Shown here piece by piece: positions 21,984 to 48,306 of a DNA stretch of 64,000 nucleotides. The first letter of the stretch is position 1. Each line of letters opens with the position of its first letter. This DNA is from Beroe forskalii. Its lineage: Eukaryota > Ctenophora > Nuda > Beroida > Beroidae. The notes below the pieces were generated by a model that was not told where the DNA came from, made no database searches, and saw nothing but the letters and a program-made list of their open reading frames with translations. A program made the translations under genes and the position numbers. The stretch lies in NCBI GenBank assembly GCA_011033025.1, contig WFMF01000533.1, positions 50,043-114,042 of the forward strand, written 5' to 3'.

Positions 21984-22331
21984 GACTACTATACTACCTT
22001 TATTCGTACTGTTAAATCTGAGAAGTGCCTGGAAGTGACAAAAATTCGTCATACCTATTTCTTTCGTAAATTCGTCATTTTTGGCGTAAATACGCCATAT
22101 TTAAATATTTGTGGCGTAAATGCAGTCATTTGGCTTTTTAGACTCGTTATAAATTTCAAATTTGTGCGATCAATGTGTGAAACTGGAACCAGCATCACCC
22201 GGCATGACCACGATTTTAGAGAGAGACTTTTGAGAGAGAGATTTTCGTGAGTGATCATATTTCTTCTATTCCTCTTTTGCTCTTTACAAAAGTATAATTC
22301 ATAAATATGTATACTATAGACAATCTTTCAG

Positions 22332-23705
22332 ATGAACTCATCAAGACTGCAAGATGATATTCCTATTTATAGAAAGAAAAGGAATCTTGTGATCTTACTC
22401 GTGTTTGCAACTGTAACCGTTTTAGTTCTCCATGAATACTATCCCTTTGATCTGTACTCAATTCTTGACAACCAAAACCCTATAAATTTTGATGGAGTGA
22501 AAATTCCCAATCCAAGTAATAATGATCAACGAGGCAACGAATCAAGACATCATGATTTGACAGCTATAAAGAAACGGAACATCATGTTTACGAAGACAGG
22601 CAAAACTGGCGGTTCCACCATTGGGTCAATACTCTATCTTTACGGTTTTCGAAACAATCTCAATTTCTTGTTGTATCCGTACGTTAATCATATGAGAAGA
22701 CCTGAACTCAAAGATATCAAATCATTACTCCCTCCACGGCCAGGCAAGGAGTACAATATCCAGACGCAGCATTCGTACTTCAACCCTGACTTCGAACACA
22801 AAGTCTTTCCGAAGGACCGGTCACTTTACACGACTGTAGTGAGATCCCCGGTAGGGCGTTTTAGGTCACACTTAGTTTACACCGGGTCGGATAAGAAGGA
22901 GAGAAGTAAGCACGAAGACGGTGATGAGCTGTCATTCGAAGAGGTATCAAATTTGTATCTTGATCAATTTGTACCGACTTGCAACTTTTCTGCACTGAGT
23001 GTTGAGCCATTGCATAAGTCCTGCATAAAGTTGAACATACTCTTACAATACCTTAGTTGGTCGCATTTCACTGCTTTGTTAGGCAATCATACAACACTTC
23101 AAGAGAGAGTCGATCTTTACATACAGATGCTAGACAAAGAATACGACCTTGTCATGATCACCGATAGAATGGATGAGTCTCTTGTTGTGCTGAAGGAAAT
23201 GATGGGTTGGGAAATGAGAGACATTCTTTACTTAAGAAAGAAGCCTTCTCCAGAAAACCCACGCTATTCAGCGGCAACAGAGGAACGAATCGTTGACCTT
23301 TTGAACATCGAGCACCAAATCTTTAACTTCTTTAACGCAAAGTTGGACTCACATATAGATCACCTCGGCAAAGACCGAATCAGGAAAGCAGTGAGCGAAT
23401 TCAGGGAGATGCGTGAGGGTTTTGAGAACAGATGCTTTAACAAGGAGGCCGGAAAAACACCTTCCTGTAAGAAGTACACTGATTCACGGGGATGCAATAT
23501 TGTAGACTGGGAATTGTCAGAGTATGGAAAAACGGGGGACTTGTCTTGTGCCTTCCTTTACACGAGATTCAGTGATTATTCAAAAGTTGTCTCGGATTTG
23601 CAACTGTCACATGACTATACGGTTAGAGATTTCAAGTATAGAACAGAGGGATTGAAACTAAAAGATGTTGTGGAGCGGTTAAGAAACGAAACAAAACAAC
23701 CGTAA
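22332..23705 (+). CDS. Galactose-3-O-sulfotransferase family protein, copy 1 (457 residues)
   Basis: A single-exon coding region for a type II Golgi enzyme that would move sulfate from PAPS to C3 of galactose on glycolipid or glycoprotein glycans. Residues 1-17 are cytosolic and basic, 18-36 form the membrane anchor ([16 protein letters not shown]), then a stem. The catalytic domain starts with the 5'-phosphosulfate loop [20 protein letters not shown] (86-105). The 3'-phosphate motif [11 protein letters not shown] is at 169-179, and [20 protein letters not shown] matches the family's FDLVLIAExxDESLVLL block. Cysteines in the C-terminal 90 residues are probably paired. The ATG directly follows ctttcag, and gtgagt near 22248 may start a 5' UTR intron. 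Lies antisense to the NHE8 gene. Substrate not determined. Confidence 0.9.
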   Translation: MNSSRLQDDIPIYRKKRNLVILLVFATVTVLVLHEYYPFDLYSILDNQNPINFDGVKIPNPSNNDQRGNESRHHDLTAIKKRNIMFTKTGKTGGSTIGSILYLYGFRNNLNFLLYPYVNHMRRPELKDIKSLLPPRPGKEYNIQTQHSYFNPDFEHKVFPKDRSLYTTVVRSPVGRFRSHLVYTGSDKKERSKHEDGDELSFEEVSNLYLDQFVPTCNFSALSVEPLHKSCIKLNILLQYLSWSHFTALLGNHTTLQERVDLYIQMLDKEYDLVMITDRMDESLVVLKEMMGWEMRDILYLRKKPSPENPRYSAATEERIVDLLNIEHQIFNFFNAKLDSHIDHLGKDRIRKAVSEFREMREGFENRCFNKEAGKTPSCKKYTDSRGCNIVDWELSEYGKTGDLSCAFLYTRFSDYSKVVSDLQLSHDYTVRDFKYRTEGLKLKDVVERLRNETKQP

Positions 23706-23764
23706 TATTTTACATAAGGGTGTCCTTTGTTGACTTAAAGAGTCGTATGAAATTATACCAATGA

Positions 23765-23890
23765 ACCCCATACTGATATCTGACCCCCTATTGATCCCCT
23801 GGTGAACCCCTACTGACCCCTGACGACCCTTTACTGACCCCTCCTTACCCTCTGTTGACCCCCTGGTGAACCCCTACTGATCCCCTGGTC
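23765..23890. repeat. GACCCC minisatellite after sulfotransferase copy 1
   Basis: Units of 15-20 bp (TGACCCCCTGGTGAACCCCTA and variants). The array in copy 2 (35215-35530) is more than twice as long. Confidence 0.9.
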
Positions 23891-24386
23891 AATTTGTATG
23901 ACTTTGTAATTGGTTCAAGTTATTCACCTCTGGCAGACTAAAATTGCTAGAATGTTTACGGGATGAATAGTCTACTTTTCTCAGATTTGGATTCATTTAG
24001 TTTTTCAGGAACTTATATGATGTGCTATTATTTTCATAATCGAATTTCTATGAATCCTATTACCAATTACTTACCATAGAAAATTAATAATATGATGATG
24101 TCATATTTTACCGGGCTATGCGCGCCCGCTACCCAAAATATCTTCAAAAAGCGCACGCGAGTGGATATATAATTCAGTATTCTCCAGATACTGCGCGTTA
24201 AATCTAGATTTCTAGATAACTCAGTACACTAGGTATATTCTATTGTAATCTATAAAACACAGTACAAAGTTGCAGTGATTCGATCAACTCATGTCTCTGT
24301 GTTATGAATAATTTAATTTGAAAAAACAGGTATGAATGTGGACATTCATGCATTCGTTTAAATAATCGTCTTTATAATCGTCTCAC

Positions 24387-25281
24387 CTCCCCGAGAATCC
24401 AGAGACCTCCGCCCACGGTGAAAGCAGAGATAGCCGTCCCCAGCACTGCGAATAACACTATAGAACCGAGGTTGGAGAAGAAGTTACCCTGAAACATACG
24501 GGAAACATGTGAAACATGTGAAACATATGTAACACGAAAAAAAATGCAAAACATATACTTTAGTACATGAACTTAAGGTATCACTTAATTAAGGTGATCG
24601 ACTCGAATTTCACCTTAAAGTGCTCGTAAATAATGTGTAACCTAAGTTACTTGACAACCTTAATTTCATGTAATAAAGTAATAAGGTAGGTATTGTGATA
24701 TTATGACACTATGTGCCTATTGCCTAACTGAGCATCATCATGGAAGGGCCCAACCAACCAAGCCCCAAGGCCATACAATTACCATAATATTATTATTGTA
24801 ATAGTGTAAAACCCAGATCAAATTGCAGCACTTATGTACGGTGATGGTGGATTGAAATACCTAGATTCTAGATGATCATGTAATTCAGGTGATACCAGCT
24901 TCAATAGGTAGGATAATTACTGGCAGCTGTTACAGCCAAAAAGACAAAATGTAGACACGATGTCTATCATTGGTCAATAGATGCAGAGATCAAAGTGCTC
25001 GATTCAAAGAATCACCACATCTCACTGCCTTTTTATGTGCACAGTACTGTAGTCTTTACTACTAAACACAGGGCTTTTTGACCGAATTGAACCCCCAGTA
25101 TTGTTGAAAACTAGACATTGCAAATCAGCTAATCAAACCTTGTGGAGCGAGTAGCCTGACTCGAATATGATGGGCGGCAACATAACCAGAAAGAAGATGG
25201 TGGGGTTCAGCATCTCCGATTGGATGATGTTCCCAATGTTGAAGTGGGCGAATATCTGGAAGATACCTCCTATGATGGATC
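24387..25281 (-). pseudogene. SLC9A8: Second copies of NHE8 exons 3 and 4
   Basis: 25139-25281 and 24387-24488 are near-identical copies of NHE8 exon 3 ([25 protein letters not shown]) and exon 4 ([29 protein letters not shown]), with intact splice sites. They lie 3' of exons 5 and 6 of the same gene, so they cannot serve in order in that transcript. They come with block copy 1. Either they are stranded by the duplication or they belong to the other haplotype or a second gene whose remaining exons are in the gap. Confidence 0.8.
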
Positions 25282-25764
25282 CTGAAAGTGGGAATTCTTA
25301 GAGAAGTGGAGAGGTGCAACTTGTAAAAATGTAAATAAGCAAAAAGTAATAATATGTAGAATAAATTTTCAAATAATTAATTTACTTTGGGGGCCCTTAT
25401 AGTGAAAAGTCTGACCTCGCACTTCGCCACTTTCAATGGTCAGAATGAGGGGTTTAGGTAATGCAAAACTTGTGTGTCCCATTGTCCCAATGATGAATGA
25501 TGTAGTAGCGTGATACATAACACAGTAAGTAACATATCACTTAACTTGTAGGTATTCAGCCAACTTCTCATAGTTACATGATACAATCTGTGTATCTGTA
25601 ATATTGTCATGTAATAGACTGAAAGGAATGGCATCAAGAAGCTTGAAAATGTAGATCATTGCAAAATGTGACTCTTGTAAATTCTAGACTTGATCATAAA
25701 ATTCCATATAACAGTACCTATACAAACAAGGGCTAAAAATCCATTCTTCAAAACCACAAACTGC

Positions 25765-26323: not shown

Positions 26324-26779
26324 CTACACAAATAGCACTATTTGGTATATGATATTTAAAGACGTACACATGGCATGACATCATGTTATTACGTAAGGAG
26401 CAGCCTGCGGTACATTAATAAGAGCCTGTGGTGCACTATCTTAACGTCTTTAACCCGTAACGTAAGAGGGTAATGTGGTGTTGTACATAATATAATCCTG
26501 GGATTGCGACACACCCTCATTTACTACAGGTGTGCAGTAGCCCGTGTGACGAAACCAATTACCAAACGCGTGTGTTTGGTGTGTGTTAAGCCAATTAACA
26601 CAGCACTAATTAGCACGTTAATCAGACCGCCCGCGCACGAATAATAGGCGGTTATTTTCTTATTTTCAACATAATTTGGCAGCACGCCCAGTGTAAATGA
26701 CGTCACAACGACCACCTATTCATTCCAAGAGCGCATATTAACCTGTGTCATTAATTAGCACGTTAATCACCCCTGTAAC
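26324..26779. other. Intron sequence between the duplicated block and NHE8 exon 6
   Basis: AT-rich, no gene. AATTAGCACGTTAATCA is repeated (about 26609 and 26753). Confidence 0.4.
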
Positions 26780-29700
26780 CTGTGTCATGAAAGAGAGGTT
26801 GTAATGAGCGTAGTGACTCATGACAATCCCACTGGATAGTATCGCCATGATCCCGCTCAGATGCAGTCCCTCTGCTAGGAAGTACGGACCGTACGCAAAG
26901 AGGCACACCGTACAGAACTCTGGGAGGGTGTCTTCTGGAGGGCGATGTGTTTGAGGAGCAGGGCAAGGACCAGGGCGAATACCACGCCTACCACTCCGCT
27001 CATACTGAAGGAGAGGAAGAAGTCTCCGAACGCGGAGCCAATGGCACTCCCTGCTTCTGTGTCGTTGAAGTGGATGATAGTGCTGAGGGGGAGGGGTATA
27101 TTAGATAAGGGGGCGGGGGGGAGGGAGCCGATAGCACTCCCTGCTTCAGTGTCGTTGAAGTGGATGATCGTACTGAGGGAAGGAGTAGGTTAGATGAGTA
27201 GATAGCCTTAAGGGTCCAGTTCATGATAATACATAGATCATAACTGCAAATTTTCGGATTTGCAAGGCATCTCTAATTCATACGCCACGCCTCTTGATTC
27301 TTGACGGTAATTACCTATATTTACCTACTTGCTTAGGTGTATTACGTGACGTCTTTCCTATTTCCCTACACGCTAATAAACTGTATGTGGGGTATTTTGA
27401 ACTTTTGAAATTAGGAAACACTCTGTGTCCGCATCATTAAAGTATACCACACTAAATACCGAATTGAGATATTATATCGGCCATTTAAAAATACCAAGAA
27501 TTTATAAGGGGGTAAATACTATCGATTTCCTTTCCTATTTTTAAACTCAGCTAGCGGTTTCTATATTTAAAATTTTAAACGTCAAAGCAGGAAAATCTAG
27601 GTACGTCTGGTGTACACACCAATAGCTCAAACTTTGCGGCATTCACTAAACTAGAGTTGACTGAAGCATTCATTTTTTCAGAAAGTTGAATCACTTTATT
27701 TACTCTGTCGAATGACAACACATGATAGCACTTACTCTGTCATGACAACACATGAAAGCACTAACTCTGTCATGACAACACATGGCAACACTCACTCTGT
27801 GATCTGTCATGACAACACATGTACAGCCCCCCTGTACATGACAACACTTACTCTGTCGAATGACAACACATGACAACACTCACTCTGTCATGACAACACT
27901 CACTCTGTCGAATGACAACACATGACAACACTTACTCTGTCATGACAACACATGACAACACTTTCTCTGTCATGACAACACATGACAACACTTTCTCTGT
28001 CATGACAACACATGACAACACTCACTCTGTCATGACAAAACATGACAACACTTACTCTGTCATGACAATGGAGACTGCGTCGTTGAGAACACTCTCCCCA
28101 AACACCAGCATGTAAAGTGTAGGGTGCACATCAATGGCTGAGAATATGGCTAGCGTTGCCACCGGATCTACTGCTGAGATCAGCGCTCCGAAACCAAAAC
28201 TGAAACAGATCAAACAGTTTATTAGGTCTCCGACCACAAACGCAAATGGAATCGAATAAAACCGCAGGATTTAGGGGTTTGGGAAATCGTGAATTGTGAT
28301 CTACCTAGGTCAATGTTTTAATCAGGGACCAGGGTGCTATCAAGTGCCCGCAGCCACAGTTGAGGAAAATACTGAAGACATCTGCCCGAAGGGCTGACGC
28401 CAGGGCATCTTTAAACCACCAACTTGCTGCTCGGTATAATTAACTTAACCTAAAATGGTATTATCAATGGAGTACTCAAGTCCTAATTCTTACAGAGGTC
28501 AATAATACTCATGCCATTGATAAAGTATGCAAAATCAGGCACGTGCCAAGCTAACCTTGGTAGTCCGATTCTGATACTATTGATTGTGATAACTTGATAA
28601 TAAGCAAGTATGCATTTCAGAGAAGATTGCTCGTTAATAACAGTAAATTAATCAAACTCGGTCACCTGCCATAAGATTAATGTATAGTAAACAATTATTA
28701 AAGTGGCAGAGTTAGCATTATTGTAATTACTGTATAGCTACATCTCCACATGCAGGACTTGACATCTTATAATATAGGATAATCAAACACCCTTAGGATA
28801 CGTTTATATGAATTATCACACGAGCGAAGCGAGTGTGATAATTCGAATTATTGCTCGAGCCGAAGGCGAGTGCAATAATTCCGATTATCACTCGAGCCGA
28901 AGGCGAGTGTGATAATTGATATAAACGTATCCTTAGGGTGTTTGATTAATCTATTATATAACGTGAGAAACGGGCAGATATTTACACTGGTTTTCCAATA
29001 ACTCAATAAGAAAGCAAATTTAGAAGCCTTTATGGATATAAAAATCCTTTAAACTAGAGCGCCTGAAATTGAATCTTGAAAATATCAAGCTTCGAAGTGG
29101 CCGGGAATTTTAGATTTAGATGGTGAAGAGTGGCTATGTATATTTGAATTTGCCCAAGAAAGTATGAATAAAAACGCAAGTCCGGAATATTCATCAACTT
29201 TGATCGTATCTTTTGATTCAACAAGGTACTATAAAGTGATTGTCGATTGAAATGTACAACAAAAAAATAGAAAGGACATTTCCGTGTAAGTGTGTAACGC
29301 CGTAGCGGACGCAAATGTTTCGGCAAATTGCGAGCGGTGGCATTTGTTTAAAATGTAAAGATGTAAGAAGGGAAACATGATTCAAACAAGCGAAATTTCA
29401 CCAACGACCAACGTGTACAACAAGTATACAAAACATCAAAACAAGAAACCTTAACGCCAAAGCAAGAGAATAAATTTGTATATGCTCGTGTATCGTTATT
29501 TATACAAGTAGTGAGGGTAAGTGGTCCTAATTGTACTCCTTGTGACACGTGCGTGCGCGGCTCATATAACGACTACTGAGTACACATAAACTCATTAAAT
29601 CAAAACAAGATAACATGATAATGTATACACTGATGTATTGTAATGGAGTGAGAGCAAGTGGTCTTCAAGTTTTCCTGACACGTGCGTGCGCGGCTCATAT

Positions 29701-32700
29701 AACGACTAAAGTGGACACATGAAACGAAAACAAGATAACGTAATATGTATACACCGGTGTATCGCAAGGGAGTGAGAGCATTAAAGGACGAGTAAAGCGA
29801 AATTTAAGGTATATTAAAAAATTCATATTATGATAGGTATCATAATTAAAAGCACTTTAGTCAAAGTCCGATGTTTCTATTCACTTACTACCGCACGCTA
29901 TAGCTAAATCAAAGAGCAATTCTAGGCGCAAAATATGATGCAGTATGGTCCCCAGTATCAAATTACACTCTGAGTTCACTATGTAAACACAGTATATATT
30001 GCATTGTTATTGACGGTTTTGATTGATTCTTTCACGCCTCGATTATTAATTAGATAGATTTTTTGGTTTCTTTTATTGACTCAGAAAATTGAGAATTCCA
30101 CTAGACGAAACAAAACGGTGTTTAACCACTCATATGGGATCGATAATTATACCAAAACGCAAGATAAATAACATACAAAGTACATAACATGCAAGGTCGC
30201 GTGGAAAGGAAGGGGACCAGATTTCGACATCAAGTGCATGTTATGTATGATAAATATATGGAAGGGAATATCTCGTCTTGTGGGTGTGGTAGAATCTTCG
30301 TTTTTTAACGATTAGATTAGAGAATTGCCCTAGATTCTGTGTACAACGTCTCAGAACTATATTTGAACAAAATTTCTTCGCTTTACTCGTCCTTTAACTA
30401 AAACTATAAAAAGTCAGATTTAAATGATTTTACATAGTAGATAAATACTAATCACAAAATTCAAAAGTTTCGATTTTTGGGGTGTGATAATTTTTCAAAG
30501 GTGTGATAACTGTTCTTTGAGGGGTGTGATAACTGTACAGTTATCACGCACCTGGAAAAATTATCACACCCCAAAATTTCGAAAATTTTAAAATATTATG
30601 AAAATTATTAATTGACCCCTAAACCCCATTTTTGAAGCCGTTATATAACAAAAATTATCGGAGCAAGAATTATATAACGATCGTTATATAATTGATAATT
30701 ATATCATTGATCGTAATTACTGGGCTACATTATCAAAATGGTAATCTCTTACGTGTTAATTATTTATTAAATATCATGTGAGGACACCCTGATTTTATAT
30801 AATCGAACTAATTCTACAAGTTGATCTCTACGAGATTATAACAATACAATCGTCACATTGTCCTAGTAGAGTAATGGAGCGACACCCACACCGCTTATAT
30901 TATGATATGTGATACAACACACAATGACAATACTCTCTGTGTATGAAACTTGGCATTGTTCATGGTGTGTTTTAATATTATACCACTACCAGCATTAGAC
31001 ACAGTAGGTATTATATATAAGGCAGTACCAGTACCAGCATTAGACACAGTAGCTGTATTATATAGCAGTTCCATGTTTTATATCGCAGTTCCAGTGCCAG
31101 TTTAATAAGAACATAACAGGGAACACCATTACCACTAGTCACTACGACACAATACAGAAGCCAACACCAGAACCACTAACTCACTAACCAGTGTACAGTT
31201 GTACACTGTGTTTTAATCTTTAGAAATACAGCGCCACTAACCAGTGTACAGTTGTACACTGTGTTTAAATCTTTAAAAATACAGCGCCACATGGAATCAA
31301 TTCAACAGAAATGTAAGTAACCCGGGATAATTTGCTTTGTCATTTTCAACAGATGTGAGTTAGACTCAGAGTTGGGGCCAGCACATTTCAGCTCTTTTCA
31401 GAATTCTCATAAAGCAAGATACTAAACTGTGGTACTTGATTATACAGAAGTACAGAGTATCAAATATCATTTGGCAATGGCAAAATAACATGTTCAATCG
31501 TTAATAAGTTAATAAGCACGTATCAAGTTGAAATTAAGTTCATTAAATCTTACCTTTGTTTGGCAGTTAACTGGTAGGATATGTTAGCCTGAAACGAAGT
31601 GACTGATCAGAACTACACGATTTATTGAGTGAATTGGACTTATTGAGTAAATTGATACATTTTTCCAATTGAAAAATAATCTAATAGTCCAAAAATCACG
31701 AAATCAGTGTCCATTTCGGGAATATTATGTTGAAATTCATCGTATTCCTTTATTTTTTTTATTTCCTCGAAACTTGGAAAGTGTTCCAGCTTCCACTACC
31801 TCACCACGATGGTGTGCAATAAGCTTACTCAGAAATAATTTCCTTTTGTTCAATGTCTCAAGAAAAGATTCATTGAAGGACTTACTCCTTAAAATGGTGA
31901 CAATATCACGGCTACTAAGTGTGACGTCATCGAATTGTGCAATGTCTGGGAGTAACGTGAATCTTAGTTTTTGAGAGTTTGAGAACAGTAGAATGTAGGA
32001 AGATGGGCGAACCAAATGCTTAAATAAGGGCTAATTGAAACTGTAGTTCAAAAAGAGACACAAAAGAATCATCAATACACTTATACAGAACTCAGTGCTC
32101 TAGATTCCCCAGATAATTCAGTATGTATTCTAGATACTGAGCAATTTCTAGATTTTTAGATACCGTAATAAAATATAGATCTCCTTAGTCTTTAACTTTA
32201 ATTGGTAAATCAACCAGTCAACACCGAATCCATGTAAATTAAAAGTTCAAACCACAAACCAGAATCTCAGAATGATAATTCAGTTTTATAGATTCCCTAT
32301 CTCGCTAAGTTTCTAGTTTTTATAATCAGTGGGTATATACCCGCAGCCTCTAGGGCTGAATTTCATATCGCATGCGCGTGCGCGTGCGATATGAAAATAT
32401 ATCCCTCGAGGGCGCTAGCCCGAGTGGGATATGTATCGTATAGCACGCAGGGCTCGAAGAGCCCGAGTGCTATACGAAATTCAGCCCATGAGGCGAGGAG
32501 TATATGGTATATATCCACTCGCGTGAGCTTTTTGGGCGAATGACATATCTAAGATGAAAAAAGTTGAATCTTCAAGTAAATCCTCGAAGATTTGAACACA
32601 CACTTGAAGGTTTTGCAACAATAATATTGAGTTTTTCTTAAATTAACAAAAATTTAAGTGTTTTACAAATGCAATAAAAACACAATTAAGCATCGTAAGT

Positions 32701-35700
32701 ATTGAATCGAAGGGTTGGCAAAGCCCATGTAGAAGTTGTGAGCCCGAGGGCGAAAATTTATAAAGGCGAATCGAATCAAAACATGGATCAAAGGTCTTGC
32801 AATCGAAGGATTATTGGCTTAAATTGTGAAGTTGAGAGTTTGGTGTTTCAATTTGCTTCCTTCTTTTTTGCGCATTTGCATTTCTTCCTTCTTTCTTTCT
32901 TTGTACGCATATCTTATCATAGTACCTATCATATTACAGTTACCTGTTATTGAGTCATTTCTTCTTGGATTACCATAAATTAGATCTTACATTACATTCA
33001 TCAACTATAATTTGTATAGCAAAGTATGAGATAAACCATTGAGTTTATTTCTCTTCCTGTTGTGTGCTGTTTCTTCTCTCTGTATTTTGCAGACGCTAGT
33101 ATGTTAGTGACCCGTATGCTCTTTTAAGGGAAAGCCGTAAATATAAGGCTTTCCCTTGAGGAATGACCTTTTCCCCTTGAAACTGGTGGCAAACACTGAA
33201 TAATGTAGATTGTAGGTTGTGTTAACTCAACATTTTGGTTATTCGGTACTGAGGCATCCATGCTCGTTTGAAAACGCTATCTCCCAAGGCTTTTATTTCT
33301 TACAAAGAGGTAGATGAGAGGGTAGGAAATAGATGTGGTTTGGAGGATTATATTCTGATTATGGAGTCTGGAGAATTTGTGTATACTACCTTTATTCGTA
33401 CTGTTAAATTCTAGAAGTGCCTGGAAGTGACAAAAATTCGTCATACCTATTTCTTTCGCAAATTCGTCATTTTTGGCGTAAATACGCCATAGTAAATATT
33501 TGTGGCGTAAATGCAGTCATTTGGCTTTTTAGACTCGTTATAAATTTCAAATTTGTGCGATCAATGTGTGAAACTGGAAACAGCATCACCACGATTTTAG
33601 AGAGAGACTTTTGAGAGAGAGATTTTCGTGCGTGATTATAATATATAACTCCATTTCTTCAATTCCTCTTTTGCTCTTTCCAAAAGTATAATTCATAAAA
33701 TACCAGTGTGTTGAAATTCAATTTCTCAAAGTGCTCTAGCATTCATAAAATATGTATACTACAGACAATCTTTCAGATGAAATTATCAAGACAGCAGAAT
33801 GATATCCCTATTTATAGAAAGAAAAGGAATCTTGTGATCTTACTCGTGTTGGCAACTGTAACCGTTTTAGTTCTCAATGAATACTATCCCTTTGATCTGT
33901 ACTCAATTCTTGACAACCCACACCCAAACCTTATGAATTTTGAGGGAGTGAAAATTCCCAATCCAAGTAATAATGATCAACGAGGCAACGAATCAAGACA
34001 TCATGATTTGACAGCTATAAAGAAACGGAACATCATGTTTACGAAGACAGGCAAAACTGGTGGTTCCACCATTGGGTCAATACTCTATCTCTACGGTTTT
34101 CGAAACAGTCTCAATTTCTTGCTGTATCCGTACGTTAATCATATGAGAAGACCTGAACTCAAAGATATCAAATCATTACTCCCTCCACGGCCAGGCAAGG
34201 AGTACAATATCCAGACGCAGCATTCGTACTTCAACCCTGACTTCGAACACAAAGTCTTTCCGAAGGACCGGTCACTTTACACGACTGTAGTGAGATCCCC
34301 GGTAGGGCGTTTTAGGTCACACTTAGTTTACACCGGGTCAGATAAGAAGGAGAGAAGTAAGCACGAAGACGGTGATAAGCTGTCATTCGAAGAGGTATCA
34401 AATTTGTATCTTGATCAATTTGTACCGACTTGCAACTTTTCTGCACTGAGTGTTGAGCCATTGCATAAGTCCTGCATAAGGTTGAACATCCTCTTACAAT
34501 ACCTTAGTTGGTCGCATTTCACTGCTTTGTTAGGCAATCATACAACACTTCAAGAGAGAGTCGATCTTTACATACAGATGCTAGACAAAGAATACGACCT
34601 TGTCATGATCACCGATAGGATGGATGAGTCCCTTGTTGTGCTGAAAGAAATGATGGGTTGGGAAATGAGAGACATTCTATACTTAAGAAAGAAGTCTTCT
34701 CCAGAAAACCCCAGCTATTCAGCGGCAACAGAGGAACGAATCGTTGACCTTTTGAACATCGAGCACCAAATTTTTAACTACTTTAACGCAAAGTTAGACT
34801 CACATATAGATCACCTCGGCAAAGACCGAATCAGGAAAGCAGTGAGTGAATTCAGGGTGATGCGTGAGGGTTTTGAGAACAGATGCTTTAACAAGGAGGC
34901 CGGAAAAACACCTTCGTGTAAGAAGTACCCTGATTCACGGGGATGTAATATTGTAGACTGGGAATTGTCAGAGTACGGAAAAACGGGGGACTTGTCTTGT
35001 GCCTTCCTTTACACGAGATTCAGTGATTATTCAAAAGTTGTCTCGGATTTGCAACTGTCACATGACTATACGGTTAGAGATTTCAAGTATAGAACAGAGG
35101 GATTAAAACTAAAAGATGTTGTGGAGCGATTAAGAAACGAAACAAAACAACCGTAATATTTTACATAAGGGCGTCCTTTGTTGTTAAAGAGTCGTATGAA
35201 ATTATACCATTGAACCTCATACTGATAACTGACCCCCTGGTGAACCCCTACTGACCCCCTGACGACCCTTTACTCACCCCTCCTTACCCTTTGCTGCCCC
35301 CCTGGTGAACCCCTACTGACCCCCTGACAACCCTTTACTCACCCCTATTGACCCTCTGCTGACCCCCTTGTGAACCCCTACTGACCCCCTGACGACCCTT
35401 TACGGACCCCTCCTTACCCTCTGCTGACCCCCTGGTGAACCCCTACTGACCCCCTGACGACCCTTTACTGACCCCTATTGACCCCCTGGTGAACCCCTGG
35501 TGAATGGTGAACCCCTAATGATCCCCTGGTCAATTTGTATGACTTTGTAATTGGTTCAAGTTATTCACCTCTGGCAGATTAAAATTGCTAGATTGTTTAC
35601 GGGATGAATAGTTTACTTTTCTCAGACTTGGATTCATAAATTAGTTTTTCAGGAACTTATATGATGTGCTATTATTTTCATAATCGAATTTCTAGGAATC

Positions 35701-38700
35701 CTATTACCAATTACTTACCATAGAAAATTGATATGATGATGAATTATTTTACCGGGCTATGCGCGCCCGCCACCTAAAATGTCTTCAAAAAGCGCACGCG
35801 AGTGGATATAATTCAGTAGTTATTCTCCAGATACTGCGCGTTAAATCTAGAGTTCCAGATAACTCAGTGCACCTATCATTCTATAATCGTTAAATCTGTT
35901 AAATCTAGATTTGTAGATAACTCAGTACACCTATATTCTATAATCGTCTCACCTCCCCGAGAATCCAGAGACCTCCGCCCACGGTGAAAGCAGAGATAGC
36001 CGTCCCCAGCACTGCGAATAACACTATAGAACCCAGGTTGGAGAAGAAGTTACCCTGAAACACATGGGAAACGTGTGAAACATGCAAAACATGTAAAACA
36101 TGTGAAACATGTAAAACATGCAAAACATATACTTTAGTACATGAAATTAAGGTATGACTTAATTAAGGTGATCGACTCGAATTTCACCTTAATTAAGTGC
36201 TCGTAAATAATGTGTAACCTTAGTTACTTGACAACCTTAATTTCATGTAATAAGGTATTGTGATATAACGACACTATGTGCCTATTGCCTAACTGGGCAT
36301 CATCATGAGCCCAACCAACCAAGCCCCAAGGCCATACAATTACCATATTATTGTAATAGTGTGAAACCTAGATCATATTGCAGCTCTTATGTACGGTCAT
36401 TAGGGTGTAACAGAATTTCCCGACACTTTGGCAATTCAAAATGCCTGGGGCATTTTCATGCAGCCTAGGACACAAGAAAACCAAAAATCGAAAAAATTTT
36501 GGTAAAAATCATGTTTTGGGCCTCGCCAGATGGCAAAAACTTTTTTGCCTGTTAATTATAAAGGCCAATTCCTTGGGTGCATCAACTCAGAAACTACTTG
36601 TTTATAGGTTTATGTAACTTCTCGTTGTGTTCATCGTTTTCTACAGGTATGAAAATGGGGGTATTACGCGTTAAAGTTATGCCCATATATGCTCATTCAG
36701 CAGAGGAACTTCTCTTATCTATGTAAAATACTTTCACTTTCATTATGAATTTTCCAGAATTATAACATAAGTATTAATACCTACAGACCTTATTGAAAAT
36801 ATTGTTTACTCCCTGGCCTGGTTAAGTTATCGAATATAATGACTAGTATAGTACAGGAAGAGCGTGATAGTGCATACGGCTCAGGAGATGATGATAATGA
36901 ATTCTTAAATTTTTATAAGGAAACACTTAATATTAAAGATAATGAAGCAGAAAACTCATAGATCAGGAAATAGAGGGTCCAGACTTCCCCACGAGCATTG
37001 CATAACAACATGGATAACTTCCAATACTATGATGCAGAAAAATTTAACTCTATAGATTGCAATTCAGAAAACTGTTTCGAATATTAATATTAACATACGA
37101 GGCATAGATCGTAATTACTACAACCTTTTGCAGTATCTTGACGCATTACAACATAGATTTGATATTATTGTACTGACTGAATGTCACATAGAATCCAATG
37201 AATATTTCAACGCAGATTTACATAATACCCATATAATTGATGGATATGACAAATTCTATGTTAGATCTTCTATAAAATACGGGGGTGTCATTGTGTACGT
37301 CAAAAAAGAGTGGAATGCAGAGTACCACTATGATCTTACTAAAACTACCAATACATGATTCAGTGTTTGTTAAAATTAGGTCACCTAAACCCAACTCTAA
37401 AGTCGCTATTTGTAGGAGGGTATTACCGGCACTGCAGAGAGGCTGACAAAATTATGTTTACTGATCGTTTCAACTCTGACATTTCTCATAAATCTCTGCA
37501 AAAAACGATATAATTATTGGAGGTGATTTTAATATATGCTTAATGAAAAGTACTTTTAATTATGACTCTCTGACTTTCCTGAACACCATAATTAGCAATT
37601 GTTGTGAAATTTTAATCTTAAAGCCCACCAGGATACAATACCATAAAAACTCGCTGCAAATAAGGTCCACCTCTTTAATTGACCAAATTATCACTAACTT
37701 ATTTGAATACGAATGTATTGCTGGTAACCTTTCTTATCCAGATTCTGATCACTGCAACTTTTGCCATATTTCAGAACTATAAGGGAGATGTTTCTAACAA
37801 TACATCGTTGTGTACTAGGCGTAATCTTAAAAATGTTGATGATGAAAAGGTAATTGAAGATTTTAATAATTATAATTGGGATGAACTAATATATTTTGAA
37901 CCTAATCTTGACACTGCTACTGAAAATTTACAAAACAGGCTCATAGAACTATGTGATAAACACGCCCCTTTGGAACAGCTTTCTAATAGAGCTAGAAAAT
38001 ATGTTAATAAACCTGGGTTGATAACGAGCTAGCCAATGATATTAGGATGAAAAATATAGCACATAGCACCAAAACCTCGACACCCACGGCTATCAATAGG
38101 CAAAAGTTTAATGATATGAGAAACCATGTAACTTATGAAACTAGAAAAAAGATGACAAAATACCTTATTGTAGGAAATTAAGCACTCAGAAAATTAAGCA
38201 CCAATGCCTCGAAAAGGGCTTAATTTCATGGTGCTTAATGACATGCTGGCTTATTTTTTGTATACCTTAATTTTCGAATAATTTTGGGATTTTTAAATGT
38301 CAAAAAATGTCCGATATTTTGCTATATTATATGTACAGTGCTAATTTAGAACAATGGAAGTAAAGAATTTAAATAATAATTTAATGATGAATTGAAAATA
38401 GTGGAATAATCAAATATCCTCGCCATAAGCCTCCGTCTCCTCGTCTTCAGCTTCCACAAATTCTTGGTTCTACATCCTTTTGAATCGTTCTTGTCAGATC
38501 TTTCAAGGCTGTAGCTCTCCTTGATGTACGCACAAAACACCAAAAACTTAATCTTTACTTCAACTGACCATTCAAGTCTGACCTGGCTCCTGATCTACAG
38601 CCCTCCTTGTGTGATTGGTGGCCGGAACTGTTCTTCTGTCAGGACTTAAATCTGTTTTACATAACAGACGCACATTACAATTTGCGTTTCATTTGTATAA

Positions 38701-41700: not shown

Positions 41701-44700
41701 AATCTGAAATATCTGAAATAAAAGTAGGTATATTAAAATAAATAATTAACTAAGTTTAAATATTCTTTTCTTTTCTTTTATTTAATATATTCATTTTTTT
41801 TAAACTTCATTTTTCTTATTTTTTTTTTATTTTTTTTTGTTTTTTTTTTTTTTTTCGGTTTTTGTAACTTCATATTTCACCTCATCAGCAGACAGCTCTC
41901 ACCACGTCAGATTTCACCACCCTGGCACGGCACAAGATCTGAAGGTGTCAGAAAAAGAGGTAGAATTCAGGGAGGGAAGAGCAGGAGCGAGATAACCGAG
42001 AGAGAGGAAGATTAATTAGATCACGGAGTCAGCTTCTCCAGTAGAATAACGCGGATATTTGATCTATCGCCGTTTAATGCGAATTTTGTATATCTAGTAT
42101 ACTCTAGCCAATCTAGTGGTTTAGAGTTCTGAAAGTTCTTACTTATGTACCATTTAGCGGATAAATTTAGATAATTTATAGTTGGGTCGGTGTGGTTACA
42201 TAGCACGAAAAATATATTGTTCCTATCATCATAATGAGTGTCTATATTATTCTTAATGAATCTTTCCAGCTTATCTGTAAATAGCTGTGTGTGGGCATTT
42301 TAGGAATATATGTTCTAGAGTTTCTAAGGAGGTATGGCAAAGACTACACTGACCATTGTCCGTCGCAATTTTCATTTTGTATCTCATATATTTACAGGTT
42401 GAGATCCGCATTAGTAACTTATACTGAAATTGGATTAATTTATAATTGTTGGTAATGCCATTGAAGGTATTATCTAGCACTACTGTCCAGTCTATATAAT
42501 CTTTATTAAGGTGTGTAGTCCATGCTTTGAGTGCAGCAGTTTCTGAGTTAATGCACCCAAGGAATTGGCCTTTATAATTAACAGGCAAAAAAGTTTTTGC
42601 CATCTGGCGAGCCCCAAAAAATAATTTTTTCCAAAATTTTTTCGATTTTTGGTTTTCTTGTGTCCTAAGCTGTATGAAAATGCCCCAGGCATTTTAAATT
42701 GCCAAAGTCGGGAAATTCTGTTACACCCTAACGGTCATGGTAGATTGAAATACCTAGATGATCATGTAATTCAGGTGATACCAGCTTCAACAGGATAATT
42801 ACTGGCAGCTGTTACAGCTGTTACAGACAAAATGTACACAAGATGTCTGTCATTGATCAATAGGTGCAGAGATCAAAGTGCTCGATTCAAAGAATCAACA
42901 CATCTAACTGCCTTTTTATGTGCACAGTACTGTAGTCTTTATTATTAAACACAGGGCTTCTTGACCGAATTGAATCCCCAGTATTGGTGAAAACTGGACA
43001 TTGCTAATCAGCTAATCAAACCTTGTGAAGCGAGTAGCCTGACTCGAATATGATGGGCGGCAACATAACCAGAAAGAAGATGGTGGGGTTCAGCATCTCA
43101 GATTGGATGATGTTCCCAATGTTGAAGTGGGCGAATATCTGGAAGATACCTCCTATGATGGATCCTGAAAGTGGGAATTCTTAGAGAAGTGGAGTAGTGC
43201 AACTTGTAACAATGTAAATAAGCAAAAAGTAATATGTACAATAAATTTTCAAATAATTAATTTACTTTGGTGGCCCTTATAGTGAAAAGTCTGACCTCGC
43301 CCTTCACCACTTTCAATGTCTCAGAATGAGATATAACTATTTAAGAAAGTCATGTATTTTATAATCTACTCATTGGTATTTTTACATGATGAGTGATCAC
43401 AGATGCAACCACCTGGTAGTGAACTTTTCATACGTTCATGCATGTACATTGCTATATAAACTGTTAAACTGACCTATTGTCTATGATACACTATACAGAC
43501 TTTTATCTGTTTTGTATACAGCGTGGAAATTAGCAGTGATACGTAAGTAAGTCTTCAATAGATGCCACTTAGAAATGGACACGCCTTCAACTCAATAGTC
43601 AATAGGTATACAAAACTTAATGTCCCATTGTCCCAATAATAATGAATGATATAATGTAGGTCAACACAGTAGTAACATATCATAACTTGTAGGTATTCAA
43701 TAACTACTTCATGATTACGCTAATTACAATCTGTATTCTGTAATATTATTACATCTGTACAGAAGCGAGACCGAAGGAAGGCCGGAATTAGCTCCGATCA
43801 TGAAATGTGGTGTTTACGAAATGTGACCCATGTAAATTCTAGACTTGATCATAAAATTATATACCAGTATAACAGTATACCTATACAAACAAGGGCTAAA
43901 TCCTGCCATTCTTCAAAAGCCACAAACTGTCAGCTAGATCCAGCTAGATCACAATACTTCAATAGCTAGATCACAATAGCTCAATAGCTAGATCACAATA
44001 GCTCAATAGCTAGATCACAATAGCTCAATAGCTAGATCACAATAGCTCAATAGCTAGATCACAATACTTCAATAGCTAGATCACAATAGCTCAATAGCTT
44101 GATCACATAATCGCAGACTTATACAAGCATCCAGTAAAATTGCGTTTGGTCTGCTGGTCTACATAATTCCATACTTTTTATAAGATTTCAAGAGTATATT
44201 GCATCGGGAACAGAACGTGCCGTAAATTCTTGTATTATATCAGCAATCTTACTGTCAACCACTTTTGACACCTCCATTTAATACAATATGCACTGTACCA
44301 GTTCAGTATGTCAGTATGTGACAGTTCATATAATTTGAACTGGCCCGTTGCCAACTCACTGCTTCACAGAAATTAGAAAGCAACACACTCATAGTGTAAA
44401 GACTCTCAATGTACAGTCTGAGAATAGACTTATAGAAATGTAGAGGTATTACAAAGGTAGAGACACTGAACCCCCATGTGAGTAATTGCTACGGTGTTTT
44501 ACTACAATAAAACAGTACTGTATAAATATGTAACGTGTGGTTCAGTAGCAAAAGCGTCCATAACTGTGCTATTCAAAGGTTTATTAAAAGTGGACAAGTT
44601 GGTGATTCAGATACAGACCGTAGGAGTTTGTGTGAGCTATGAGCATTTACTGTTATCGCAATAAAGAAGGAACTACTCAACACGCTGGTGAGTGGTGGTT

Positions 44701-45355
44701 TGGAGGATTATAAAACTATAAAACAACTGATCATTACGTATTCTCATAACATACGAGCAGAAGCCGAATATAACATGAGGCGGAAGCCGACTATGACATG
44801 AGGCGGCAGCCGACTGACCTAGCACTACAATATACTATGACATGAGGCAGGAGCCGACTGACCTAACACTACAATAGCGATGCTCTCCGGGAGGTAGTGG
44901 AACTTGAACTTGATGAGGAGGTACACGAGTAGGATAGCCACTACCAACACACACAGGATGAAGAATATCCGGAAACTGTTCTGACTTTCCTCCTGAGATG
45001 CTTCCTGAGGCGGCTCAACAGGGGGTAATGCCTGTTTGTCTCCCGTTGTCTTGGAGACAGAGCTGTTGGTTTCCATGGTAACTCCCTCACCCAGTGTGTA
45101 CTGGGTTTTCAGCTGATCTGCAGCATTAGGGATGTCTCCTGTGTTCCTGTGATGGCGAAATGGTTACTGTGGACAGAGAATCACTCAAATTTTAATTACG
45201 ACAATTTGTAGCTTATCATATTAGCTTAGAGCCCACATTCATTTTGACAGCTGAGATTATTAATGAACACTGAGATTGTAAATTATAACTTACTGATCAG
45301 CGCAGAATCCAGTCTGAAGAAGCCCAGACAGCAGGAGCACTACTATCTTCAGCAT
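26780..45355 (-). CDS. SLC9A8: Na+/H+ exchanger NHE8, N-terminal two-thirds of the transport domain
   Basis: Exons on the minus strand: 45294-45355 (signal peptide [20 protein letters not shown]), 44863-45146 (acidic lumenal stretch, then helix [20 protein letters not shown] and [11 protein letters not shown]), 43022-43164, 35953-36054, 28056-28199 ([18 protein letters not shown], with the ion-binding aspartate region, and [13 protein letters not shown]) and 26780-27082 ([46 protein letters not shown]). All junction phases agree. The order and residues follow NHE8, an electroneutral exchanger of Golgi, endosome and apical membranes. One base is missing near 26921 (CCCTCCCAGAG where family members read PSLEF). 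The 3' exons, beginning with the usual LRTVAFLCE helix, are not visible and should be in the gap. The exon 4 to 5 intron contains the antisense sulfotransferase. Confidence 0.88.
27034..27172 (-). repeat. Duplicated acceptor and start of NHE8 exon 6
   Basis: The acceptor and first 49 bases of exon 6 (27082 downward) occur again exactly 90 bp upstream (27172 downward), with four differences. Both acceptors have pyrimidine tracts and both keep the frame after exon 5. Using the upstream one would add 30 residues, including a second [15 protein letters not shown]. Confidence 0.88.
27715..28060 (-). repeat. Minisatellite made of the NHE8 exon 5 end and its 5' splice site
   Basis: On the minus strand the real junction reads GTCATGACAGA/GTAAGTG. 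The intron after it repeats GTCATGACAGAGTRAGTGTTG about ten times in 20-32-bp units. Several copies keep a good donor (GTAAGTG or GTGAGTG); others are changed (GAAAGTG, GTTAGTG). The repeat begins in the exon itself. Confidence 0.9.
28781..28947. repeat. Fold-back with three nested hairpins
   Basis: The outer ends AATCAAACACCCTTAGGATA and complement are nearly perfect inverted repeats of about 35 bp. Inside are three hairpins: AATTATCACAC/GTGTGATAATT tipped by GCGAAGC, AATTATTGC/GCAATAATT tipped by GCCGAAGGC, and ATTATCACTC/GAGTGTGATAAT tipped by GCCGAAGGC. It lies in the exon 4-5 intron of NHE8. Confidence 0.9.
30475..30585. repeat. Inverted repeat GGGGTGTGATAATTTTTC
   Basis: The arms meet at ATAACTGTACAGTTAT, giving a long stem with a few mismatches. 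A direct copy of GGTGTGATAACTG inside suggests it grew by duplication. The arms share GTGTGATAATT with the 28781-28947 hairpins. Confidence 0.8.
31189..31290. repeat. 54-bp tandem duplication
   Basis: Two copies of ACTAACCAGTGTACAGTTGT... to ACAGCGCCAC. Each contains the small palindrome GTGTACAGTTGTACAC. Confidence 0.9.
33777..35156 (+). CDS. Galactose-3-O-sulfotransferase family protein, copy 2 (459 residues)
   Basis: The paralogue or allele of the gene at 22332. The start is set at ATG 33777, the position matching copy 1, directly after ctttcag; the longer upstream frame has no ATG support. Anchor, 5'-phosphosulfate loop ([14 protein letters not shown]), 3'-phosphate motif ([11 protein letters not shown]) and the [10 protein letters not shown] block are all unchanged. 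About eight substitutions separate the copies over the last 400 residues. The first 55 residues differ by about ten plus a two-residue insertion. The possible 5' UTR donor reads GTGCGT here instead of GTGAGT. It lies within NHE8 intron 4, on the opposite strand. Confidence 0.9.
   Translation: MKLSRQQNDIPIYRKKRNLVILLVLATVTVLVLNEYYPFDLYSILDNPHPNLMNFEGVKIPNPSNNDQRGNESRHHDLTAIKKRNIMFTKTGKTGGSTIGSILYLYGFRNSLNFLLYPYVNHMRRPELKDIKSLLPPRPGKEYNIQTQHSYFNPDFEHKVFPKDRSLYTTVVRSPVGRFRSHLVYTGSDKKERSKHEDGDKLSFEEVSNLYLDQFVPTCNFSALSVEPLHKSCIRLNILLQYLSWSHFTALLGNHTTLQERVDLYIQMLDKEYDLVMITDRMDESLVVLKEMMGWEMRDILYLRKKSSPENPSYSAATEERIVDLLNIEHQIFNYFNAKLDSHIDHLGKDRIRKAVSEFRVMREGFENRCFNKEAGKTPSCKKYPDSRGCNIVDWELSEYGKTGDLSCAFLYTRFSDYSKVVSDLQLSHDYTVRDFKYRTEGLKLKDVVERLRNETKQP
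35215..35530. repeat. GACCCC minisatellite after sulfotransferase copy 2
   Basis: An expanded version of the array at 23765-23890. Higher-order units of about 60-65 bp (TGAACCCCTACTGACCCCCT then GACGACCCTTTACTCACCCC) are repeated about five times. Confidence 0.92.
36700..41365 (+). mobile_element. LINE inside the TIR element
   Basis: Frames in order: an upstream acidic stretch; an AP-endonuclease (37080-37780; [25 protein letters not shown], then SLIDQIITN and DSDHCNF); a linker interrupted by a MITE; reverse transcriptase (39310-40430; [39 protein letters not shown]-type loop, YADDT); and a C-terminal part to about 40870. The 3' end is a run of TTTCAA hexamers (41311-41356). Stops and shifts break it into at least six frames, so it is inactive. 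Endonuclease type and tail suggest a CR1/L2/Jockey-like clade. Confidence 0.85.
38163..38856. mobile_element. MITE with TA target duplication, copy 2 (694 bp)
   Basis: Same element as 16853-17516 (ends CCTTATTGTAGGAAATTAAG, flanked by TA). It sits within the LINE: removing it restores AAATACTTTGCC (KYFA) in the LINE reading frame between the endonuclease and reverse transcriptase. Confidence 0.92.
41524..42535 (-). mobile_element. 5'-truncated L1-like LINE splitting the right TIR
   Basis: GCAGTTTCTGAGTT flanks it on both sides (41510-41523 and 42536-42549), a 14-bp target duplication. On the minus strand it ends in an A-rich tail (the T/G run at 41521-41566). The body encodes the zinc-knuckle C-terminal part typical of L1-type reverse transcriptases ([15 protein letters not shown], then [20 protein letters not shown]). 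The 5' 80-90% of the element is absent, as usual for target-primed integration. Confidence 0.88.
43935..44105. repeat. 22-bp tandem repeat (copy 2)
   Basis: Counterpart of 25765-25935 (AGCTAGATCACAATAGCTCAAT), with a slightly different unit count and arrangement. Confidence 0.93.
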
Positions 45356-46005: not shown

Positions 46006-48306
46006 TCAAGAAATGTTCCTAAACCCACTTACAGATGGCATAGGTTTACAAAATAATAACTTCCAAGCTGATGCAAGATGTTGAACAGAGGGAAAATAAG
46101 TCGGAGATGGGTTGATACCAACAAGCTTGATATCAAGCTGAGGAGTAATAAGGATCTGTACTCCATAACAATGTTTTTCTGAGGTTTTACTTGTTAGATT
46201 AGACAGCAAATCATGAAGGATGTGGTGTATCTTAGTTTCCGTTGACGGCCATGAATCCTTCAAACTAAACTCCACGAGGAACTTAGGCCACAATGTCGAT
46301 GGGAAGTTGCTTCCGTCGCTCCTTGGTATGAAATGGTCCGTTAGATAATAGTTTTCTCCCTCCTCCGAAGGCAACCGTGCCTTGTGAACTGATGGAATGT
46401 CAGAAACGTAGCATTGCTTGTCCCGAATAACAACTGTAAATTCAAGGCTGCACTGACGGTTCTCAAGTTGCAAAGACTCGATGTATGGCTGAGCAAAGTA
46501 AGTCAGACTGTTCTCACAGAGTCTTGCTAAACGTGTTGGGTCAGTCGTGAGGACTGACAAGGCTGAGTTTTCTGCGCACCTCATGAACCAGACAAGGTCC
46601 CAGGATGATGGTGAGGCAAGAATTGCAGCTAGTTCCTTGTTTAGATGATAACCAGCAGGCCACCAGTCAGCTGAACCAAACGTACTTTTGATAAATGTGT
46701 TCAAATGCAGCAAGTTAGTTAGGGCATTATCAAAACTATTGAAATTTACTAATCCATCCCGTTCTTTACGGCCTTGCTTCCAGTGACAACACTCCTTACC
46801 TGGAACTTCCTCCTTAACAACTGTTATACCAAGGTCTTTGAGAATGCCCATGGCACCCTCATTCAAACTCATGTCTGTCACCATAGTTAAAGAGGTACAG
46901 CCCTCATCGTTAGGTTCCAATTGTTCAACTGGGTCCCAACTACTTGGCTTGTATTTGTGAGGAGGCAGCAAATTATCATACTGGCTCTTGAATGTTTTTG
47001 GAACATCTTTTGCAAGATTTGCAGGGTTAGAAGCCCAGATTCTAGCTTTCCTTTGAAGTTCAGGTTCGTCACTGAAAAGAGTTACATATTTATTGAGGGA
47101 ACAAGTATCACCAGCTTTGACATTTTTGATGGGCCAAATCAATGTCATAATCTTCCCACCATAACAAGACCAGAAAGGGGCAAGTCGGAATGTAGGATTC
47201 TTGCTGTGTACCATCTTTGTGACAGTTTTAGGTGGCAGATACCAGTTATGTGCTTGTCTCCCTTCGGCAGTTACAGCTTGATAAGTAAGAGCACAACTCC
47301 AGAGCTGATCCATAGCCCCAATAAGTTCCCTCCTCCTCTCACAACTCAAGAAACCCTCACTTATCTTCTCCTCCCCAACAATGAGATTCTGCCACATGTA
47401 CTCTTCGTTTTCTCCTTTCTGGATGCTCGCTATGATGTTATCAGTGCCCTTCTCAAAGTACCACGTACACTCATCTGGTTGCACCATTCCCTCAAAGTTC
47501 CCATAGATTATGGGAGTCTCCCCTCGTATGCCAAATGTCCAGTGGCGACTGGTTATTTTGCTCACGACATCCCCCCTTTTGGTGCCAGGAGGAACAGGAA
47601 TTGTGACAGTGATAACATGTTCCTCTGCATCATCCTCCCATTTGTATTTATCTGTCGTACCAAAGCCATCTTCACCAATTTCTTGCTGCTTCTTCCTAAC
47701 ATACCCGTTATAAAGTTGCTCAAGTTCAGCCTCGGATTTCTCTTCTGTTACAGCTGACTTGAACTCTTCGAATGTTATGATTGACGGCTTTTTAGGGAGA
47801 TTCAGGGATTGAGCAAGCTTTTCTCCATCTACATTGTCTTCGGACAGGTCCTCAAGCTTCTGCACAGTAAGAACTAAGTCACCTTTGGCTTGGTGGTATG
47901 CTGCCTTTGCTGAATCAAATGAACATGAGCAAAACCCAGCAATTCCTTCGATGATCTCGTTAGATGTAAGGGAGGATTTAAATGCCCCATCATCAGGAGG
48001 ACCCATGATATCAAGTAAACGAGCAGGTTGACTGATATCTTCATCAAGATTAGAATAGGTGGTTCCACTCCCATCTCCAGTCCACAAATGAGGCACTAAG
48101 TAGACACAGCTGTAGGGTTGATGGGGTTTCAGTGCTACGACAACGCCATCCTTGACTTGGAGACCACTTTCGATGTCTAGCACAGTTTTAGGCTGCAGTT
48201 TCTCGTATACCTGTCTCCACGCTTCCTCAGGCAGCCCGTTGTGACGAAGTTGTTGTTCGTGGTACTGCACGAACTCACTGTATCCCTCTTCTAAATCAAT
48301 TCCCAT
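46006..48306 (-). CDS. TTLL12: TTLL12-like protein with inserted UBA-like and CS domains (766 residues)
   Basis: One long open frame. Residues 8-77 match the TTLL12 N-terminus (YSEFVQYHEQQLRHNGLPEE, VYLVPHLWT). 111-153 look like a UBA-type helical domain (IIEGIAGF...AKGDLVLTVQKL). 221-315 are a CS/p23 domain of NudC type (DKYKWEDDAEEHVITVTIPV, RGETPIIYGNF, DECTWYFEKG, MWQNLIVGEE). 325-430 return to TTLL12 (MDQLWSCALTYQ, IMTLIWPIKNVKAGD), and 440-755 are a diverged TTL ligase domain. Where active TTLs have a KPW-type nucleotide lysine, this one reads VWFMRCAENSAL; the metal-binding ExN near the end reads VGIN. It is therefore probably a pseudoenzyme, with CS suggesting an Hsp90 or dynein-pathway partner. 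A strong donor (GTAAGTGGG) at about 46033 suggests the last residues come from another exon. Confidence 0.85.
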   Translation of the reverse strand: MGIDLEEGYSEFVQYHEQQLRHNGLPEEAWRQVYEKLQPKTVLDIESGLQVKDGVVVALKPHQPYSCVYLVPHLWTGDGSGTTYSNLDEDISQPARLLDIMGPPDDGAFKSSLTSNEIIEGIAGFCSCSFDSAKAAYHQAKGDLVLTVQKLEDLSEDNVDGEKLAQSLNLPKKPSIITFEEFKSAVTEEKSEAELEQLYNGYVRKKQQEIGEDGFGTTDKYKWEDDAEEHVITVTIPVPPGTKRGDVVSKITSRHWTFGIRGETPIIYGNFEGMVQPDECTWYFEKGTDNIIASIQKGENEEYMWQNLIVGEEKISEGFLSCERRRELIGAMDQLWSCALTYQAVTAEGRQAHNWYLPPKTVTKMVHSKNPTFRLAPFWSCYGGKIMTLIWPIKNVKAGDTCSLNKYVTLFSDEPELQRKARIWASNPANLAKDVPKTFKSQYDNLLPPHKYKPSSWDPVEQLEPNDEGCTSLTMVTDMSLNEGAMGILKDLGITVVKEEVPGKECCHWKQGRKERDGLVNFNSFDNALTNLLHLNTFIKSTFGSADWWPAGYHLNKELAAILASPSSWDLVWFMRCAENSALSVLTTDPTRLARLCENSLTYFAQPYIESLQLENRQCSLEFTVVIRDKQCYVSDIPSVHKARLPSEEGENYYLTDHFIPRSDGSNFPSTLWPKFLVEFSLKDSWPSTETKIHHILHDLLSNLTSKTSEKHCYGVQILITPQLDIKLVGINPSPTYFPSVQHLASAWKLLFCKPMPSVSGFRNIS

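Follow-up and report, generated by a model that had tools for sequence, protein, structure and literature searches.

A probable mirage-type minisatellite with repeated splice donors at the end of an NHE8-like exon of Beroe forskalii

The exchanger gene in the window

The window, which is the whole stretch of DNA that was analysed, comprises 64,000 nucleotides of the ctenophore Beroe forskalii and contains on its minus strand the exons of a gene with a Na+/H+ exchanger domain. With a human NHE8 sequence as the query, tblastn yielded minus strand matches at 45121-44861, 43165-43022, 36057-35953, 28243-28058, 27024-26923 and 26920-26777; the second and third of these matches recur at 25282-25139 and 24497-24387. 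Identity to this query ranged from 38 to 77% for the individual pieces and was 62.5% for the match at 28243-28058, which represents the exon bearing the array of tandem repeats (Table 1). This exon also matched the Pfam Na+/H+ exchanger domain PF00999 above its cut-off, in agreement with the first-pass annotation, which had assigned it to NHE8. As the matches to the NCBIfam exchanger models were below their cut-offs and no molecule named NHE8 was found among the listed solved structures (the best being an unspecified exchanger and NHE9), NHE8-like is the safe name for the gene. A search for the exon in bacterial and archaeal contigs brought up no relative.

An exon between the third and the fourth detected ones has probably been missed, since the peptide which human NHE8 has at this place was not found and the phases of the flanking exons do not match. 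Given this exon, the earlier numbering of the array-bearing exon as exon 5 may be right. For the following exon, E5, choice of the upstream one of its two acceptors would add 30 residues. By eye, sequence variants of these two acceptors are seen in the opposite order and 88 nucleotides apart on a second contig, C358 (L002, 2199 and 2287). Relative to human NHE8, E5 carries a frame shift at about 26923-26920 of the window on the minus strand, for which a pseudogene, a polymorphism or a sequence error are candidate explanations.

Table 1. Coordinates of the features of the exchanger gene and its array within the window
Feature	Position	Strand	Basis
Junction-bearing minisatellite, 12 times exon end and donor, last copy GAGTAAATAAAGTG	27700..28068	-	TRF, U1 pairing, script
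NHE8-like exon (exon 5 of the first-pass annotation, E4 of the detected exons), 47 residues and GA of a split codon	28056..28199	-	tblastn, sequence
Authentic donor, GTAAGT, with U1 pairing predicted at -8.3 kcal/mol	28050..28055	-	U1 pairing prediction
Seven intact GTRAGTG decoys (28025, 27935, 27903, 27883, 27851, 27795, 27735)	27735..28025	-	U1 pairing
Two adjoining dead copies, GAAAGT instead of the donor	27960..28000	-	sequence, script
Next detected exon E5, starting at 27172 or 27082 by two acceptors 90 nt apart that both keep the frame of the preceding exon	26780..27172	-	tblastn, sequence
Further, smaller junction duplication (44 bp, 2 copies) with the donor and the end of detected exon 1 (last base 44863)	44790..44876	-	TRF, sequence
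Second copy of exon E2 (other at 43022-43164; identical at 140 of 142 positions compared), apparently belonging to a large within-gene duplication	25139..25281	-	tblastn, alignment

The surroundings of the gene are rich in duplications. Exons E2 and E3 are each present twice within the window, and the stretch at 22297-23887 is duplicated at 33741-35326, that at 24373-25449 at 35939-36397 and 42754-43330. Half of the region 31100-32300 is matched by another place on the contig of the window (C618) and half by C358. In both copies of E3, some 15 bases at most separate the acceptor from a 9-bp repeat resembling AAACATGTA (36062-36128 and 24502-24534). Between the exons of the exchanger a galactose-3-O-sulfotransferase-like gene lies on the plus strand, again in two copies, which are 95.7% identical (Pfam match on one copy). 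The minus strand at 46006-48306 contains an open frame of 766 amino acids with a CS domain and a SET-like domain of tubulin tyrosine ligase type, presumably a TTLL12-like protein.

The array and its donors

Tandem Repeats Finder called the array with a period of 30, 12.6 copies and a score of 401, overlapping rows having periods of 52 and 20. On the minus strand the array starts within the exon, reading GTCATGACAGA up to the boundary between exon base 28056 and donor base 28055 and GTAAGTGTTGTCATG beyond it, whereafter this junction is repeated. The first copy is thus the exon end itself, GTCATGACAGA followed by GTAAGTG, and by a script count 12 junction copies follow in register with it, the first one included. 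The tandem unit therefore extends across the exon-intron boundary, which bears out the earlier statement that it contains the exon end and the donor. The 11 complete copies measure 30 bp in six cases, 32 bp in three, and 20 and 56 bp in one case each; the unit of 30 bp is composed of TTGTCATGACAGA, the donor GTRAGTG and TTGTCATGTG.

From these 12 copies eight carry GTRAGTG when the authentic donor is counted, so that many but not all units contain the splice signal. The 11 non-authentic copies divide into seven intact ones, two weaker ones (GTTAGTG at 27765 and GTAAAT at 27703) and two dead ones which adjoin each other and probably go back to a single mutation that was later copied. The array announced by the first-pass annotation is real, its 11 extra copies departing slightly from the about ten decoys named there; that copies keep GTAAGTG or GTGAGTG while some are dead was described correctly, two of them having lost the GT. 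Of the 18 GTRAGTG motifs which the minus strand has in the window, eight fall within the 369 bp of the array; the plus strand has 11. With the 5' end of U1, duplexes of -7.5 to -8.4 kcal/mol were predicted for the seven intact decoys. As these values are close to the one of the authentic site, U1 pairing alone cannot separate the decoys from it.

Another finding concerns the message. Reading on beyond the authentic donor yields ...VMTE followed by TAA, i.e. an in-frame stop right at the junction (GAG-TAA), and a script confirmed that this in-frame TAA precedes all decoys. Use of any decoy would therefore truncate the protein inside its exchanger domain. The variable exon ends that had been proposed as one role of the array could only be non-productive because the TAA is taken in by every decoy product, and variable ends of a useful kind are thereby ruled out. 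At the duplicated end of the first exon, use of the second donor would by eye likewise lead to an in-frame stop. In the 972 nucleotides from the donor to the downstream acceptor one AATAAA and no ATTAAA was found, the former at the end of the array (27700). Shielding of an intronic poly(A) signal by U1 was considered and given no weight, about one such signal being expected from base composition by a hand estimate.

Occurrence of the junction-bearing unit in the genome

A copy of the exon together with its array is present on C358, where the array occupies 875272-875428. The surrounding region matches 26331-31723 of the window in six pieces with 86-93% identity, and 28774-30686 of the window has no match on C358 at the length shown. 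In the exon 139 of 144 aligned positions are identical, in the intron stretch behind the array 486 of 499. The array on C358 has six junction copies, consisting of the authentic donor, four decoys with GTRAGTG and a last copy, GAGTAAATAAAGTG, identical to that in the window; downstream of the donor two bases distinguish the first copies of the two arrays. The two arrays agree in the exon end, in the donor and over the entire last copy but have 12 and six copies, so that the copy number has changed. The two contigs may be paralogues or haplotypes: from the alignments, their copies look like one large within-gene duplication split over C618 and C358, and some of them might be haplotypes of one locus.

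Occurrence of the unit widely in the genome had been named as an observation that would make the match to the exon a matter of chance. The junction-bearing 21-mer GACAGAGTRAGTGTTGTCATG was found by exact match eight times in the 216-Mb genome, six times on C618 in the array of the window and twice in the array on C358; away from these two exchanger arrays no exact match was found in the 216 Mb, and the reversed control gave none either. For this 21-mer a genome-wide family is thereby ruled out at the level of exact matches. One third of the unit behaves differently. The dimer of TTGTCATGTG gave 44 exact matches on seven other contigs (C161, C170, C175, C197, C552, C758 and C876), most of them on C758, and none within either exchanger array. 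As this third of the unit is arrayed elsewhere, the array is, judged from these matches, a mixture of exon-derived and generic repeat sequence. A search with the whole array gave at least 42 matches including the window array and its copy on C358. Two of the 40 further matches were inspected with Tandem Repeats Finder (L003 on C484 and L005 on C758) and proved to be repeats of 10 and 12 bp resembling CACATGACAA, with about 50 copies in the CACATGACAA array of C484.

In the window 39 arrays of tandem repeats, after merging of Tandem Repeats Finder rows by hand, cover 4153 of the 64000 bp, and duplication of a junction in such repeat-rich surroundings is only mildly surprising. Local duplication was scored when the 30-mer centred on a position had a match of at least 22 out of 30 bases within 200 bp. 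This was the case at 5.4% of the random positions (n = 4000), 9.2% of the GT positions (n = 3000) and 7.7% of the AG positions (n = 3000), and three of nine junctions scored positive (binomial p 0.010-0.043), namely the donor of the first exon with 25/30, the donor of the array with 27/30 and the acceptor of E5 with 22/30 at a shift of 90; the other six reached 14 to 18. The two acceptors of E5 were counted once in this test, the duplicates of E2 and E3 were excluded, and the donor boundaries of E1, E2, E3 and E4 were set one base upstream of the GT, which has a small effect in a comparison of 30 bases. When the array junction, which was known beforehand, is dropped two of eight remain (p 0.066-0.164), and an enrichment of duplicated junctions in the exchanger gene is on these figures not convincing.

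Origin of the array and its relation to known mirage repeats

The reading which is most probable, and which we hold with good confidence, is that of a mirage-type minisatellite which was seeded by the exon-intron junction, extended by slippage or unequal exchange into the intron, and is passive. An 8-bp direct repeat, TTGTCATG, which flanks the donor on both sides, probably aided this extension. The spliceosome would be expected to act mainly at the authentic, exon-proximal donor, and splicing at an intact decoy would lengthen the exon by 30 to 320 nucleotides starting with the in-frame TAA and give a non-productive message ending in ...SIVMTE-stop. A caveat to this reading is that the three of nine junctions found in local duplications could exceed chance; others are the downstream repeat units acting as donors in human IFI6 (PMC4526556) and the possible role of mirage units as cryptic sites (PMC3087553).

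Two alternatives are unlikely to about the same degree. According to the first, the array was not seeded by the exon; an intronic minisatellite of the generic TTGTCATGTG type would have met an exon edge containing TTGTCATG and gained the donor by slippage. The dimers of TTGTCATGTG on other contigs, the share of this 10-mer of one third in the unit and the long CACATGACAA array of C484 are in line with this, and the seed may indeed be in part a generic repeat. Against it stand the confinement of the junction 21-mer, by exact match, to the two exchanger arrays and the lack of an exact TTGTCATGTG dimer in both of them. The present array carries the junction under both readings.

The second one, improbable as well, takes up the ideas of U1 spreading and of a splicing buffer from the first-pass annotation. 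The decoys would compete for U1 as a sink, their use would lead to messages with a stop, and the copy number would tune the productive NHE8-like mRNA. In its favour the seven decoys resemble the authentic donor in their context from -3 to +7 and have roughly its U1 energy, the TAA would be contained in every decoy product, the two arrays differ twofold in copy number, and human IFI6 provides a precedent in which donors of repeat units are used (PMC4526556). It is opposed by the donor columns: changes were found in 2 of 48 cells as compared with 5 of 232 in the other columns for the window array (10 copies), and in 0 of 18 as compared with 4 of 88 for the array on C358 (4 copies), in a count that omits the authentic copy at the start, the incomplete one at the end, position +3, which varies, insertions and gaps. 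In neither array is there a sign of selection on the decoy donor columns at these small numbers (10 and 4 copies), so that their conservation does not appear to favour spreading or buffering. The two dead and two weak members among the 11 extra copies, and the reportedly undisturbed splicing at lancelet mirages (PMC3087553, PMC3902484), also speak against a sink. The same holds for the doubtful state of the gene, as E5 has a shifted frame in the window and departs still further on C358; either copy may be the intact one, and sequence error may account for part of these changes. In its strictest form, where U1 is spread over the seven decoys behind an obligatory stop and array length sets the amount of productive exchanger mRNA, the idea is more doubtful still. 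An assembly artefact, by which the copy number or the two arrays would arise from a duplicated, repeat-rich region on two contigs with some copies being haplotypes, is very unlikely. In its favour E2 and E3 each have a second copy in the window, the following exons occur again on C358, the copies are close in places and E5 is disturbed on both contigs, but the units of the array differ from each other and the two contigs hold different variants, which shows that the array exists though its exact length is uncertain.

The array is a further example of the known mirage repeats and not a new kind of system. Such repeats are described for lancelet globin, Adh3, troponin C and PGBD5 genes (PMC3087553, PMC3902484), the latter paper contributing PGBD5 and troponin C. 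In lancelet mirages AG and GT signals are present in many but not all repeats, repeat numbers vary between haplotypes with 6 and 3, and mirage units could serve as cryptic sites (PMC3087553); the data reportedly suggest that regular splicing is undisturbed (PMC3087553, PMC3902484). The anatomy is the same as in Beroe, with a unit across the exon-intron junction, and the range of 10-72 bp for the lancelet Adh3 unit includes the 30 bp of the present array. Unlike in the lancelet mirages, all decoys of the Beroe array lie behind an immediate in-frame stop, and the animal is probably of a different kind, COX1 being open under mitochondrial table 4. This COX1, on a contig of 13,339 bp, is open over 507 codons under table 4, with five TGA as tryptophan and six AGA and one AGG as arginine. 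The small size of the contig and the divergent, T-rich sequence of COX1 point to a ctenophore. The positions of these AGA and AGG codons are presumably arginine in other animals; chordates read AGA and AGG otherwise and are not known to use table 4, a code which is common to sponges, cnidarians and placozoans. Ctenophores are thought to use it too (PMC6991124).

Human IFI6 resembles the Beroe array in having a minisatellite with donors at an exon end. It was reportedly described by Turri et al. in 1995, and its unit is said to measure 12 bp. Two downstream repeat units act as donors there (PMC4526556), and their use gives isoforms, whereas in Beroe any decoy would lead to an immediate stop. 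In view of these lancelet and human cases the description of the array as unusual is not supported. Variable internal tandem repeats are also described for human genes in segmental duplications (PMC2812944); the units of these minisatellites average about 30 bp, and some of the repeats lie at exon-intron boundaries of duplicated genes. In contrast to the array in Beroe, those repeats are backed by transcripts and some of them made new introns. A tandem duplication across an intron-exon boundary is known to copy splice signals, which is relevant to the duplicated acceptor at 27172 and 27082; a new intron was detected there, whereas nothing in the Beroe locus shows one. A paper joining ctenophore, minisatellite and splice was not found in the open-licence literature searched.

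As an array in a ctenophore, it would extend junction-spanning minisatellites from lancelets and human genes to a non-bilaterian, and it may serve as a natural test of how the spliceosome chooses one donor among eight nearly identical ones.
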